In this document: one piece after another, positions 1 through 35,803 of the stretch
Layout of the letters: each line of letters opens with the position of its first letter
Position numbering within the stretch: the stretch's first letter is position 1
Source: a virus
IMG/VR virus record: IMGVR_UViG_3300027706_000262
Coordinates: 1-41,186 of that record
Reading direction: 5' to 3' (one strand)
Length of the DNA: 41,186 nucleotides
Notes under the pieces: model-generated
Told to the model about the DNA's origin: nothing
The model's input: the letters and a program-made list of their open reading frames with translations, nothing else
Databases searched by the model: none
Position numbers and translations under genes: made by a program

Positions 1-336
1 TCATTCCGCGGCCTCATCGACGAGCCTTGTTTCAAGGCCATATTTTTCGGACGTTGCGTTGAACTTCTCGATCAAGGCGCGGCGGAGATCGATGTTCTCC
101 GCCATCGCGATCAGGTCGACGCAGATCACTACATCGGCCAATTCCTCTGCAAGCTGCTCGACGGTAGCGCGCGAACCCTGGATGCCGAGACGTTCGCGCG
201 CGATCTTCTTGATGATGTTGCATGCCTCGCCGACCTCGCCCGCGAGTTCATTGCCGCGATATTCAAGGCTGATGCCGTTTTCCTTGTCCCATTCCCTTTG
301 CCGGCGGAGATTGGCGAGCCGAAGCAGTGCAAGCAT
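1..336 (-). CDS. MazG-like nucleotide pyrophosphohydrolase
   Basis: A protein of about 111 residues that looks like a single-domain all-alpha NTP pyrophosphohydrolase of the MazG/dUTPase-like superfamily. The metal-binding signature is visible as ELAGEVGE near residues 30-37 and EELADVVICVD near residues 64-74, matching the ExxE...ExxD pattern of the family. Such enzymes hydrolyse (d)NTPs to monophosphates and pyrophosphate; in phages they may clean the nucleotide pool or lower ppGpp-type signals, which cannot be decided here. The ATG at 334-336 overlaps the TGA of the upstream nuclease gene (TGATG), so the two are translationally coupled; a GTG one codon earlier is possible. The stop codon lies exactly at bases 1-3. 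Confidence 0.8.
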   Translation of the reverse strand: MLALLRLANLRRQREWDKENGISLEYRGNELAGEVGEACNIIKKIARERLGIQGSRATVEQLAEELADVVICVDLIAMAENIDLRRALIEKFNATSEKYGLETRLVDEAAE

Positions 337-854
337 CACTCGCCCCTGCGTTCAGCGCGCCAGCGCGCGGGGATTTCGAATTCGGTTTGCCAGAGGCCGA
401 GGCGATCCTCTTTCGCCATTGCTTGCGCGGCGGCGTAGCGTTCGATCCGATGCGGCGCGATCTGCTCGTTGTCGCGTAGCACGATCGCCCATCCCTGGCG
501 GACGAGCACTTCTGCCACGTCCATCTCGCCGTCCGGCAGAACGCACCAAGCGACGAGACGGCCGTAGCGGTCACGGTCGAGCGGCTGGCAGGAAAGGGAT
601 TGCTCGCCGATGATCTTCGCGAGCTTAACGCGGGCGATCAGTCCGCATTTGTAGGCGATCTGGCCGTCATAGAGTGGGAGAAAGCAGAGCTGCCGTGCTT
701 CGGGCGCATCGATTCCATAGAGGCGGATTTCGGCGGCGCCAATGCGGAGCGAATCGCCGTCGATCACCTGCGGCTTGCCCTGTACGATGAATTCGCCGGC
801 GATAGCGGGGAGGGCAAGAAATGCTCCGATCGCCGCGGCAAAAGAGCGCCTCAT
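336..854 (-). CDS. Exported SNase-type thermonuclease
   Basis: 172 residues with an N-terminal signal peptide (MRRSFAAAIGAFLALPAIAG) followed by a staphylococcal-nuclease OB fold. Family motifs are visible: VIDGDSLRI, RLYGIDAPE and DRDRYGRLVAWC, which carry the calcium-binding Asp and active-site Arg positions of the family. It should cleave DNA and RNA in the periplasm or outside the cell. A GAGGGA-type ribosome site precedes the ATG, and the stop overlaps the MazG-like gene start. Leftward genes beside a repressor are often expressed in the lysogen, so a role in host physiology or in blocking incoming DNA is possible, but that is inference. SNase-like genes are frequent in alphaproteobacterial genomes and phages. 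Confidence 0.85.
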   Translation of the reverse strand: MRRSFAAAIGAFLALPAIAGEFIVQGKPQVIDGDSLRIGAAEIRLYGIDAPEARQLCFLPLYDGQIAYKCGLIARVKLAKIIGEQSLSCQPLDRDRYGRLVAWCVLPDGEMDVAEVLVRQGWAIVLRDNEQIAPHRIERYAAAQAMAKEDRLGLWQTEFEIPARWRAERRGE

Positions 855-896
855 TTCATCCCTCGCTCCCCGGTGTAAGGACCGCGCGGCGGGGTA

Positions 897-1157
897 TCAG
901 GCAGATTGTTCATATTGCTTCTCCGGAGAGAGACAGGCGCCGTATTTGTCGACGAGCGCGATGCCGCGGCGCTTCAGGGCATCGACGACGGAAAAGAGAT
1001 GCGGGTTGCCGGCGGCATCGACGAAGCCGGCTCCGGCGCGCTTCAGAGGCCCCATGCAGAGCGCCTGATAGGCGCGGTTCATTTCGGGGGTGATGATGCC
1101 GAGCCTTGCGGCGGCGCGGCGCGCGCGGGCGGCGCGGTCGGTCTCGATGTAGGTCAT
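897..1157 (-). CDS. Hypothetical protein, first gene of the leftward operon
   Basis: 86 residues, not recognised. The N-terminal third is very rich in Ala and Arg and the rest is soluble with no membrane segment or clear motif. A good ribosome-binding site (GGAGGGGAA) lies just before the ATG at 1155-1157, which supports the start. It is the first gene downstream of the leftward promoter proposed at 1329-1358 and lies 42 bp upstream of the nuclease gene, so it is probably co-transcribed with the nuclease and MazG-like genes under repressor control. Confidence 0.6.
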   Translation of the reverse strand: MTYIETDRAARARRAAARLGIITPEMNRAYQALCMGPLKRAGAGFVDAAGNPHLFSVVDALKRRGIALVDKYGACLSPEKQYEQSA

Positions 1158-1328
1158 TTCCCCTCCACGGGGCGGATGCGATGTCCGGGAATGCGCGGGG
1201 GAGCGGGGCGGCCGATTTCGGCGGTTCGGGCGCGGGGGCTCACGGCTCCGGCACTGCCTGCGCGATCATGGCCGATAGCGGGAACAGACAATGCCGGAGC
1301 CTCCAGCCGAATGAATCGGCTGCCCGAC

Positions 1329-1358
1329 ACTATAAGCGAAACGCATAGTGATTGCCAA
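1329..1358 (-). promoter_or_regulatory. Leftward promoter overlapping an operator element
   Basis: Read on the minus strand, TTGGCA (1358-1353) is followed after 18 bp by TATAGT (1334-1329), a good sigma-70 type promoter firing toward the 897-1157 gene. The spacer contains ACTATGCGTTT, the reverse complement of the operator element found between the repressor and Cro genes. This suggests that the same repressor controls the leftward operon. The leader before the first start codon would be about 165 nt. Confidence 0.55.
1339..1350 (+). promoter_or_regulatory. Operator element AAACGCATAGTG, outlying copy
   Basis: This 12-mer is identical to the copy at 1834-1845 in the repressor/Cro intergenic region, about 495 bp away. 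It is flanked on the left by CACTAT (1328-1333), which pairs with its own ATAGTG end (1345-1350). A degenerate relative, AAAACGCAGTG, lies at 1373-1383. Repetition of a 12-mer on both sides of the repressor gene is unlikely by chance and fits binding sites for the XRE repressor or Cro. Confidence 0.6.
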
Positions 1359-1466
1359 GCTGAACTATATGCAAAACGCAGTGGATAATTCCGCCGCTAT
1401 GCGCGAGGCTGTGGGTGCGGCCGCAGGAGTTTCGGCAATTATGTAGCGATTACAATCGCTTAAAGT

Positions 1467-2491: not shown

Positions 2492-2881
2492 ATGAAACCG
2501 AATTGCACCTTGACAGTTCCAAAGGCAATCGAAGCCGGTGAGGCATCTTGCAGCAAAAGCTGCAATTCCTTGCAGTTGATTCAATCAGTGGGTGCAGTCG
2601 CGCGTAAGCTGTGGCCGAGAAAAACCGCAGCCGAGCTCGCCTCGCGCACCGGCCGCTCGCAGCGGCAATGCCATTACTATCTAGCCCGCAAATTCAACCT
2701 CGACGCGCCGGCGCTCGTGCGCCTCCTGCGCTCGCGCGAGGGTTTGGCTTTTCTGGAAGCCATGCTCGGTGACGACAAGCCGGAATGGTTTCAAGATTTC
2801 AAGGAGAACGTCGAGATCCGGCGGCTGCGCCGCAGCCAGGCCGAGATCCGGAAACGCATTGAGGCTTTTTCGGGCGACTAG
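2492..2881 (+). CDS. Putative HTH DNA-binding phage protein
   Basis: 129 residues. The middle part (about residues 40-70, WPRKTAAELASRTGRSQRQC then HYYLARKF) has the look of a helix-turn-helix with an AELA...GRS turn. The C-terminal part is a basic helix likely to be a coiled coil (EIRRLRRSQAEIRKRIEAF). It is probably an early DNA-binding protein, but no family name is certain. The ribosome site is weak, and a downstream start is possible. The N-terminal 30 residues contain three cysteines without an obvious metal-binding spacing. Confidence 0.6.
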   Translation: MKPNCTLTVPKAIEAGEASCSKSCNSLQLIQSVGAVARKLWPRKTAAELASRTGRSQRQCHYYLARKFNLDAPALVRLLRSREGLAFLEAMLGDDKPEWFQDFKENVEIRRLRRSQAEIRKRIEAFSGD

Positions 2882-2952
2882 CCCGGAACGGTTTGCGTAA
2901 AGCGTGAGTGGGGCCGTGACCGGCACGGCGAACGATCGGCGGGGAATCCCTC

Positions 2953-3108
2953 GTGCTGAAACGGAAGAGTGTTGCCTTTTCGCTGTGGGTCGCGCGTCGC
3001 GGCGAGCAGCTTTCCGCGTTTTTCACGAGCCTCGCCGAGTTCATCAAGACCGGCAAGTGGCCGGAAAAGACTTCCGAGAAAGGCGGCGACGATGAAGCCG
3101 CTCGATAG
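2953..3108 (+). CDS. Small hypothetical protein with GTG start
   Basis: 51 residues beginning at GTG 2953-2955 with GGGGAA a few bases upstream. The product has a hydrophobic/aromatic centre (SAFFTSLAEFIKTGKWP) and a charged tail. No function can be assigned. It overlaps the following small gene by 17 bases, in keeping with the tight packing of this early operon. Confidence 0.4.
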   Translation: MLKRKSVAFSLWVARRGEQLSAFFTSLAEFIKTGKWPEKTSEKGGDDEAAR

Positions 3109-3274
3109 TTTCGCAGCGTCGAAGCCCCAGGGGGCGAAGGGCCGTAGCCCTAGCGTACCAGGCGGATTTGCCGTGCCTTTCGGCGCTGCTGACGCGCGCC
3201 ACTACGGCTCGGCGCGCGCCGCTTTCTGTGATGGCCAAGATCCTCGATGGGCCCAAGCAGCGGGAGCGGACTAA
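3092..3274 (+). CDS. Small hypothetical protein
   Basis: 60 residues from the ATG at 3092-3094, preceded by AAAGGCGG. It is rich in Ala, Gly, Ser and Pro and probably disordered. The stop TAA overlaps the ATG of the next gene (TAATG), which is the main support for it being translated. Confidence 0.4.
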   Translation: MKPLDSFAASKPQGAKGRSPSVPGGFAVPFGAADARHYGSARAAFCDGQDPRWAQAAGAD

Positions 3275-3621
3275 TGACCGAAACCTGCGTGCTGATCTCC
3301 GTCGCGAAAGCCGCGATCGACGCGGCCGAGCACGCCGGCCACGAGCCGCTCGAAACAACGCAGGCGAATGCCGACCGCGTGATGACGCGGCTCTGCCAGT
3401 GGCGCGATCCGCACATCCGGAAATTCTTCAACGACGGCATTCCGTTCGACGGCCAGGAGCTTTGCGTCGAGGCGGCGCTCCTGATCGACGCAATTTTCCG
3501 CATGGTCCGCGCACGCGGCGAAGTGCTCGGGCTGCAGGCCGCGATCGTGAAGGCGCACATCGATCTGGTGCGCTTCGAAATCAGCATTCTGCAAAACAGG
3601 ACGGGCGAGGAGCCGGGCTGA
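3274..3621 (+). CDS. Hypothetical early protein
   Basis: 115 residues, largely alpha-helical by composition, with no recognised motif. It starts at ATG 3274-3276 after GGGAGCGGA and its stop overlaps the ATG of the next gene (TGATG). It contains several widely spaced Trp, Cys and His residues (CQWRDPHIRKFF) but no metal-binding pattern. The location in an early operon before nucleotide-metabolism and ParB-like genes suggests an early accessory role. Confidence 0.6.
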   Translation: MTETCVLISVAKAAIDAAEHAGHEPLETTQANADRVMTRLCQWRDPHIRKFFNDGIPFDGQELCVEAALLIDAIFRMVRARGEVLGLQAAIVKAHIDLVRFEISILQNRTGEEPG

Positions 3622-9169: not shown

Positions 9170-10072
9170 ATGAACAAACATTCGGAAGTAAAAAGTGAGA
9201 AATCAGTTCTGGTGAAAGCAGATCCTAACCTGCCTGCATTCGTAGTTTCGGGCGCATCAGCCATCGCCATCAAGGCAGGTACGATTTTCAACGGCGTAAA
9301 ATTTTCGGGAGACACGCCGATTGCTCCTCCGGAGGGAGGCTTCGTTCCCGGCACCGACTATTATGTCTGGCTCAAAGATGGCGCCCCACTCTGCGAAAAA
9401 GCCAAGGTTAGTAGCCTCGATCAATTGATCGGCGGCTTCCATTTCGCGCCCGGCGGCAATGCGACCGAGCGCAAAGGCGGTGACGAGACGCCGGCGATCA
9501 ATCCCTATTCCGCATGGGACATCAATTTCCATCCCGCCTGTGAAGATCCGCGCGGAATGACACTCGTCGAAATGTTCGGCGAGAAATTCTGGTGCGACAT
9601 CTATCTGCTCGGCGCCGATCACAACAAGGATGGTACCAGCAAGTTCGGCGTTCGGATCGCCGACGGTGACGAGCCTCCCGTCAAAATCGATGATGGCGTT
9701 TTCGATAATCTCGATTACGCAACCGCCGTCCAGGTGATGAAGGATCACGGGAAACAGCTTCTCAGCGTGACCGAATTCTCCGCGGCCGCTTATGGCGTGA
9801 AGGAAAGGTCATCTGCCGACAAAGACCCCAAGAAAACGAAGCTGGACGCTCCGCGCACCAGCAAGTTCGGCGTGATGCAGGCGACCGGCAACATGTGGGT
9901 GTGGGGTCACGACGGTGACCCCCACGAGCCGCGCGCGAGCCTCTTCGGCGGTTCCTGGCTCAACGGCTCGAACGCGGGCTCGCGCTACGCGCACGTGGCC
10001 TACCTCTGGCCGGGGTACTCGAGCGACTCTCTCGGGGCGCGCGGCCGCAGTGACCACCTGCAGCTTGTTTAG
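9170..10072 (+). CDS. DGR variable protein (C-type-lectin-like, Mtd-type)
   Basis: 300 residues, start supported by TTGGAG (9155-9160). The C-terminal part has the formylglycine-generating-enzyme/C-type-lectin look of DGR target proteins: LLSVTEFSAAAYG, MQATGNMWVWGHDGD, PRASLFGGSWLNGSNAGSRY, then a terminal GARGRSD. The last 43 codons lie in the variable repeat (9927-10054). Compared with the template, nine residues differ: L258, L264, H275, L279, G282, Y283, S285, S287 and L288, all at adenine-containing codons, chiefly AAC, AAT and ATC. The N-terminal 230 residues are beta-rich and Mtd-like, suggesting a receptor-binding or virion-surface protein. It lies in the early region, far from the tail genes. 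Confidence 0.9.
   Translation: MNKHSEVKSEKSVLVKADPNLPAFVVSGASAIAIKAGTIFNGVKFSGDTPIAPPEGGFVPGTDYYVWLKDGAPLCEKAKVSSLDQLIGGFHFAPGGNATERKGGDETPAINPYSAWDINFHPACEDPRGMTLVEMFGEKFWCDIYLLGADHNKDGTSKFGVRIADGDEPPVKIDDGVFDNLDYATAVQVMKDHGKQLLSVTEFSAAAYGVKERSSADKDPKKTKLDAPRTSKFGVMQATGNMWVWGHDGDPHEPRASLFGGSWLNGSNAGSRYAHVAYLWPGYSSDSLGARGRSDHLQLV
9927..10054 (+). repeat. DGR variable repeat (VR)
   Basis: This 128-bp stretch at the 3' end of the variable-protein gene aligns without gaps to 10483-10610 (constant offset of 556). There are 12 mismatches, at 9937, 9941, 9959, 9992, 10004, 10005, 10014, 10016, 10023, 10028, 10029 and 10031; each is an adenine in the template (six to C, three to G, three to T). The last 21 bp (10034-10054) are invariant and GC-rich, as expected for the initiation of mutagenic homing (IMH) region. 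Identity stops at 10055. Confidence 0.97.
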
Positions 10073-10091
10073 CCGCCGCGACAGCGGCGGC
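10072..10091 (+). promoter_or_regulatory. DGR target hairpin with GACA tetraloop
   Basis: GCCGCCGC (10072-10079) and GCGGCGGC (10084-10091) form a perfect 8-bp stem with loop GACA (10080-10083), 17 bp beyond the end of the variable repeat and starting on the last base of the stop codon. In BPP-1 a hairpin of about 8 bp with a GRNA tetraloop downstream of the IMH is needed for efficient retrohoming; GACA fits GRNA. The short T-run after it (CGTTT) means it could also act as a weak terminator. Confidence 0.85.
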
Positions 10092-10482: not shown

Positions 10483-10610
10483 AGCCGCGCGCAAGCATCT
10501 TCGGCGGTTCCTGGATCAACGGCTCGAACGCGGGCTCGCGCTACGCGAACGTGGCCTACAACTGGCCGGAGAACTCGAACGACAATATCGGGGCGCGCGG
10601 CCGCAGTGAC
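10483..10610 (+). repeat. DGR template repeat (TR)
   Basis: The invariant template copy of the variable repeat, 4 bp after the avd stop. It has 26 adenines, 12 of which are changed in the current variable repeat; no other base differs. Adenines cluster in AAC, AAT, GAG and ATC codons when read in the frame of the variable protein, the typical design for substituting surface residues. In this frame it is open and continuous with the downstream RT frame. Confidence 0.97.
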
Positions 10611-10808
10611 GACCGGATTATGACTCGGCGCGTACCACGGTCGCGCCGGTCGGCCACAGAGGCAATTCCTCTCGATCAAGATCGGTGGTCAGCCCGCGTG
10701 TCCCGCTTCGGCGAAGACACTGCGCGGTCCGGCATAGCGGGGCGTAGGCCGAATCTCTCGGGATGTGGTTCGAGACCCGCGGCCGGCTTTCTTTTCAACG
10801 AGCACTTC
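10611..10808 (+). ncRNA. 3' spacer of the DGR template RNA
   Basis: 198 bp between the template repeat and the best RT start codon. In BPP-1 the RNA downstream of the template repeat is bound by RT and Avd and primes cDNA synthesis, so this stretch is likely part of the functional template RNA. This is inference from position. It contains several GC-rich complementary segments but no other gene is convincing; the RT-frame reading is open but arginine/serine-rich. Confidence 0.55.
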
Positions 10809-34780: not shown

Positions 34781-35803
34781 ATGCAGACTTCGGGGCAGCT
34801 ACAAGGAATTCAGATTCTACGGCTTGTGGCTGCATCGATGGTGCTGCTTTATCACGCCGTCTACAAATCGTGCTCGCTTGCCGGATCGGTGCCGGAATGG
34901 TGGGAGCGGATCAATTTCGGCACGATCGGCGTCTATTTGTTCTTTGTGATTTCCGGTTATGTGATCGCGCGGCAGGCCGATCGCGAAACGCCATTGCTGT
35001 TCGGCCTCCGGCGCATCCTGCGAATTTATCCTGCCTATTTCGGCGCTCTTGTTCTGTCGATTATTTTGCTGCCGAAGTTAGCTGCGATCCGGTTCGATGT
35101 TTCATTGCTTCTCTTGCCCGGTGGCGAGCGTCAGGGATGGACGGCTATTCCGTACTGGACCCTAATTTATGAAGTGCATTTTTACTCGGTAGCCTTCCTG
35201 CTCATGCTCAATCGGGCACGGCTCTACGATATCGGCCTCGTGGTTTGGGCGGCGTTTATTTTCGTGATGAGCCTCGACTTTCCGCATCCCGCCGATCTCA
35301 AGGTCGGGCTGGAGGTTCTGTATTCGCCGCTCAGCCTTCTTTTTATCGGCGGCGCGTGTCTTGCGCGGCTGCATGATGGAAAGATTTTTCCAATCTGTGC
35401 CATCGCATTCTTCGCCGCTTGTTTCGAATGGTGGTTTAAAAGTTTCCAGATCGTGTGGGAAATCACGTTCATCATCGGAGCCCTGGCGATCATCCATGCA
35501 GCCACTTTGGTTCCGGCGACTTTGAATAGCCGTTTCTTTCGTTTGGCGGTGCGCGGCGGCGATTATTCCTATGGGCTCTATCTCACGCATTTCATTCCGA
35601 TCGCCGCACTCAGCATGGCCGGTAAGGAATGGAATCTTTGGCTCTTGATGGTGTCAATGTTCATTTTGGGCGCCGGCTTCGGCCTCGCATCGGGCGCCAT
35701 GGAATATTGGGCGCAGCGAAACTACTTCCGGCCGCTCGCCCGCCGCATCGCCGGCTTGCCGCCGCGCGGAAATGTTTTTGCGGGCGATTTCATCGGCGGA
35801 TGA
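34781..35803 (+). CDS. Acyltransferase 3 (O-antigen acetylase-like)
   Basis: 340 residues with about ten hydrophobic segments. The family motifs are IQILRLVAASMVLLYHAVYK (Arg and His of the active site near residues 14-26), GTIGVYLFFVISGYVIARQA and FGLRRILRIYPAYF, matching OafA/WecH-type integral membrane acyltransferases that acetylate O-antigen or other exopolysaccharides. The gene lies between tail spike and lysis genes with its own GGGAG ribosome site. In temperate phages such genes cause seroconversion of the lysogen, which changes the receptor and blocks superinfection; that role is inferred. Confidence 0.85.
   Translation: MQTSGQLQGIQILRLVAASMVLLYHAVYKSCSLAGSVPEWWERINFGTIGVYLFFVISGYVIARQADRETPLLFGLRRILRIYPAYFGALVLSIILLPKLAAIRFDVSLLLLPGGERQGWTAIPYWTLIYEVHFYSVAFLLMLNRARLYDIGLVVWAAFIFVMSLDFPHPADLKVGLEVLYSPLSLLFIGGACLARLHDGKIFPICAIAFFAACFEWWFKSFQIVWEITFIIGALAIIHAATLVPATLNSRFFRLAVRGGDYSYGLYLTHFIPIAALSMAGKEWNLWLLMVSMFILGAGFGLASGAMEYWAQRNYFRPLARRIAGLPPRGNVFAGDFIGG

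Follow-up and report, generated by a model that had tools for sequence, protein, structure and literature searches.

How could two repeats in a phage genome come to differ, over 128 bases, at adenines of one of them and at no other base? The question arises in a window of 41,186 nucleotides (the whole stretch of DNA that we analyzed), where a variable repeat (VR) aligns without gaps to a template repeat (TR). Our recount exactly reproduced the initial annotation in its offset of 556, its 116 identities, and its 12 differences, each of which is an A in the TR. Six of these adenines read C in the VR (9941, 9959, 9992, 10004, 10029, 10031), three read G (9937, 10014, 10023), and three read T (10005, 10016, 10028). 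The template tract contains 26 A, 43 G, 42 C, and 17 T, and none of its 102 non-adenine bases is changed; the hypergeometric probability that all 12 differences fall on adenine is 4.1e-10, in agreement with the earlier claim of a bias beyond chance. At the codon level, a TR adenine is able to change the amino acid in 17 of the 18 codons that carry one (the exception being GCA, codon 256), and 11 of the 12 changes fall in codons with an altered amino acid, the A>G at 9937 being silent (GCA to GCG). Asparagine codons changed at both adenines had been described as "several"; the examples given, AAC>CTC (codon 279) and AAT>TCT (codon 287), are correct, but they are exactly two. We looked for further VRs across the 2.94-Mb assembly at both the DNA and the protein level and recovered only this VR and TR.

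The adenine-only differences are almost certainly caused by a complete BPP-1-type diversity-generating retroelement (DGR) in a tailed prophage. Its parts are present in the window itself (Table 1): besides the adenine-only VR/TR pair we found a DGR-type reverse transcriptase (RT) adjoining the TR, an accessory variability determinant (Avd), and a spacer RNA between TR and RT. The RT is 51% identical to Brt of BPP-1 and matches PDB 8ub7_A (E = 7.5e-106), and its YMDD occupies residues 218-221. Residues R74 and I181 of Brt, which we take to affect adenine infidelity, are aligned with R and I likewise in the window RT.

Table 1. Features of the DGR locus, in window coordinates.
Feature	Position	Strand	Evidence and remarks
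Target gene, mtd-like, 300 aa; VR is its C-terminal end	9170..10072	+	PHROG, Pfam, PDB matches
Variable repeat (VR)	9927..10054	+	12 differences from TR, every one at a TR adenine
VR 3' end, GC-rich, IMH-like boundary	10032..10058	+	Fixed C at 10055 vs G at TR 10611
Hairpin/cruciform	10072..10091	.	8-bp stem GCCGCCGC, loop GACA; overlaps last base of target stop codon
avd, accessory variability determinant, 123 aa	10108..10479	+	Pfam bAvd E 2.9e-21; PHROG 3206; PDB 4dwl, 8ub7_B
Template repeat (TR)	10483..10610	+	Homology extends to 10614
DGR spacer RNA, Rfam RF03022 Phage_DGR	10658..10787	+	69.4 bits, gathering 50
DGR reverse transcriptase, 332 aa	10809..11807	+	IGSLTSQ motif, YMDD active site

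The target protein matches the PHROG 11262 tail protein (E = 9.5e-84), the second domain of Pfam Mtd, and the solved Mtd structures PDB 1yu0-1yu4 (E about 1e-50), the last match running through the C-terminus. The VR ends five codons before the target stop, placing it at the 3' end of a gene whose product is predicted to have a C-type-lectin fold. The hairpin begins 17 bp after 10054, and its 8-bp GC stem and GACA loop agree with the hairpins of phage DGRs, which have a GC-rich stem of 7-10 bp and a GRNA loop and lie 4-34 bp after the VR; in BPP-1 the hairpin is required for efficient homing (PMC3240598). Among relatives, substitutions in the stem are compensated on the opposite arm (for example, a C-G pair is T-A in L003 and G-C in L007) with the GACA loop constant, and a perfect stem of at least 7 bp is found in 13 of 16 targets examined.

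The initial annotation had proposed counting substitutions by template base in related phages, with many non-adenine differences as the outcome that would speak against it. RT searches returned 13 viral contigs, one Xanthobacteraceae MAG, and, more distantly, an RT from Planctomycetia, and relatives, BPP-1 included, provided 15 gap-free VR/TR pairs. The same pattern was observed directly in these pairs: 168 of the 173 differences lie at A, that is, 168 of 335 adenines were changed versus 5 of 1,531 other bases (Fisher P about 1e-136, nominal given shared ancestry), and the many non-adenine differences that would have refuted the reading were not seen. The particular VR substitutions vary from phage to phage. 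A set of 23 pairs, comprising the window and further loci, gave 274 of 278 differences at A, with a tract cut one base shorter that also drops two C>T differences counted in the 15-pair set. The IMG/VR phages and the prophage of the Xanthobacteraceae MAG (L003, L005-L015, L017) encode RTs 68-76% identical to that of the window and share its cassette and adenine pattern, most of them its hairpin too. Both the anatomy of the locus and its relatives fully support the earlier reading of a DGR with adenine-specific mutagenesis.

By analogy with BPP-1, the RT with Avd would reverse transcribe the avd-TR-spacer RNA and misincorporate opposite template adenines; the IMH and the GACA hairpin after it would direct the mutated cDNA into the mtd-like gene, whose 3' end it would replace, and the receptor-binding tip of the tail fiber would change, with the TR remaining intact. 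It is from BPP-1 that we infer these biochemical steps, the variable-tip fold, and the role in host range. Since DGR mutagenesis occurs during reverse transcription, the VR is the cumulative product of at least one mutagenic round of homing. The initial annotation had the element mutagenic since an identical copy last homed, which reverses this mechanism, as homing itself writes the mutations; nor is that timing supported: the adenine-only pattern shows that mutagenic homing occurred, not its date, its number, or ongoing activity. The absence of change at non-adenine bases means that TR and VR have stayed free of drift but leaves the last event undated.

A plain duplication that diverged through ordinary mutation could also yield two similar stretches of 128 bases at a spacing of 556, but the restriction of the differences to adenine (P = 4e-10), the same A bias in relatives, and the DGR-type RT adjoining the repeats leave this origin with practically no probability; chance or ordinary divergence of VR and TR is ruled out by the base bias. 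It is very unlikely, too, that the DGR was recently inactivated and that the VR, no longer changing, is a relic of earlier mutagenic homing: each of RT, Avd, TR, RNA, and hairpin is intact, and the 102 non-adenine template bases show no drift. In favor of inactivation stands only that a close relative of this phage with a different VR, which would be a sign of activity, did not turn up: phages gave no near DNA match, and viral contigs gave no exact match to a 25-base spacer pattern. The target protein occurs in only three other genomes among 397 of the order, all distant. Our searches brought up no evidence contradicting a complete DGR.

At the 3' end of the VR, the tract limit of 10054 given by the initial annotation stands insofar as 12 of 12 differences inside the span lie at A, but the homology goes 4 bases further, to 10058/10614, where the count becomes 12 of 13 with a single non-adenine difference at 10055 (TR G, VR C). 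This extra site is more than noise: across 21 pairs with GTGAN as anchor, CACC stands at the boundary in every VR and in no TR, the TR reading GACC, GACT, GACG, GATG, GATC, CTCC, or AACC. The layout of BPP-1 is similar, with VR ACCACCTG versus TR CCCATCAC following its shared GC-rich end; CCACCTG is common to the VR 3' boundaries of BPP-1 and the window, phased differently, and the first VR/TR boundary difference is one base in the window and more in BPP-1. The GC-rich VR end and the recurrent boundary difference fit a putative IMH/IMH* boundary, assigned by analogy with BPP-1, but constraint on the VR as coding sequence would leave the same picture: a requirement for His-Leu after Asp may account equally well for the fixed VR bases. 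That one-way homing asymmetry in this BPP-1-like branch rests on only the first boundary bases, less than in BPP-1, seems unlikely.

In gene order and strand the window matches the BPP-1 cassette mtd / avd (bbp7) / TR / brt, and BPP-1 likewise has an Mtd target, Avd, and Phage_DGR RNA. The hairpin after the VR has the same 8-bp stem size and GRNA loop in BPP-1 and other phage DGRs. The Mtd proteins are 39% identical, with 300 aa in the window and 381 in BPP-1, and TR adenines in many codons are aligned with, or beside, adenine codons of BPP-1 Mtd. Unlike BPP-1, the window carrier has an HK97-type portal, protease, and capsid and a tape-measure tail. More than 30,000 DGRs have been catalogued (PMC8144416); the window DGR is a clear, ordinary further example of a known system and leaves knowledge of DGRs unchanged. 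Its contribution is a BPP-1-type cassette, well preserved, in another phage background, together with some 20 related VR/TR pairs that bear out adenine-only mutagenesis in nature cleanly.

Whereas the window and its genome have one diversified mtd gene, some relatives (L005, L007, L029, L034) have two. In L005 (6735-6861, 9105-9230), L007, L029, L034, and L030/L035, two mtd-like genes are both A-diversified from one TR, and on the contig of L030/L035 they lie on opposite strands. Two-target DGRs are known, but with different proteins (PMC10743442). L006 contains a second mtd copy (2715-3539, minus strand) whose VR is cut after 76 bases and runs into apparent HTH-type sequence; all 9 of its differences from the TR are at adenines, and, having neither IMH nor hairpin, it resembles a former target left stranded.

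All three ATC codons of the TR (window 9941, 9959, 10031) became CTC (Ile to Leu), and A>C is in excess in the window, at 6 of 12 changes versus 27 of 168 in relatives (P = 0.01, spotted post hoc on only 12 changes). In E. coli, the BPP-1 RT is reported to insert G opposite A more often in an NAC context, which gives A>C on the sense strand (PMC12875486). Among the 23 natural pairs, A>C is rare in NAC (8/123 changes versus 36/151 elsewhere), and changed adenines in NAT became C in 15 of 27 cases versus the 8/123 in NAC. This natural pattern runs counter to the NAC bias of the BPP-1 RT in E. coli, but it is confounded with selection on codons, which it may reflect.

The phage that carries the DGR is temperate and tailed and resides in an uncultured bacterium; genes for a terminase, portal, head protease, capsid, tape measure, and J-like tail protein come after the DGR in the window. 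On the 44,272-base contig, an integrase lies near the left end (contig 212-1390, minus strand; PHROG integrase E = 1.4e-16) and a tRNA-Gln at the right end (G000:C141 44110-44183), outside the window. The 5' part of this tRNA is repeated near the left end beside the integrase (G000:C141 86-113; 28 bp, 26 identical), forming a probable attachment-site pair with the repeat at the tRNA 5' side. The integrase and this probable pair suggest that the contig represents an integrated prophage with little missing. Downstream of the tail genes, window positions 34781-35803 encode an acyltransferase (PHROG O-acetyltransferase, Pfam Acyl_transf_3), a candidate host-surface modifier.
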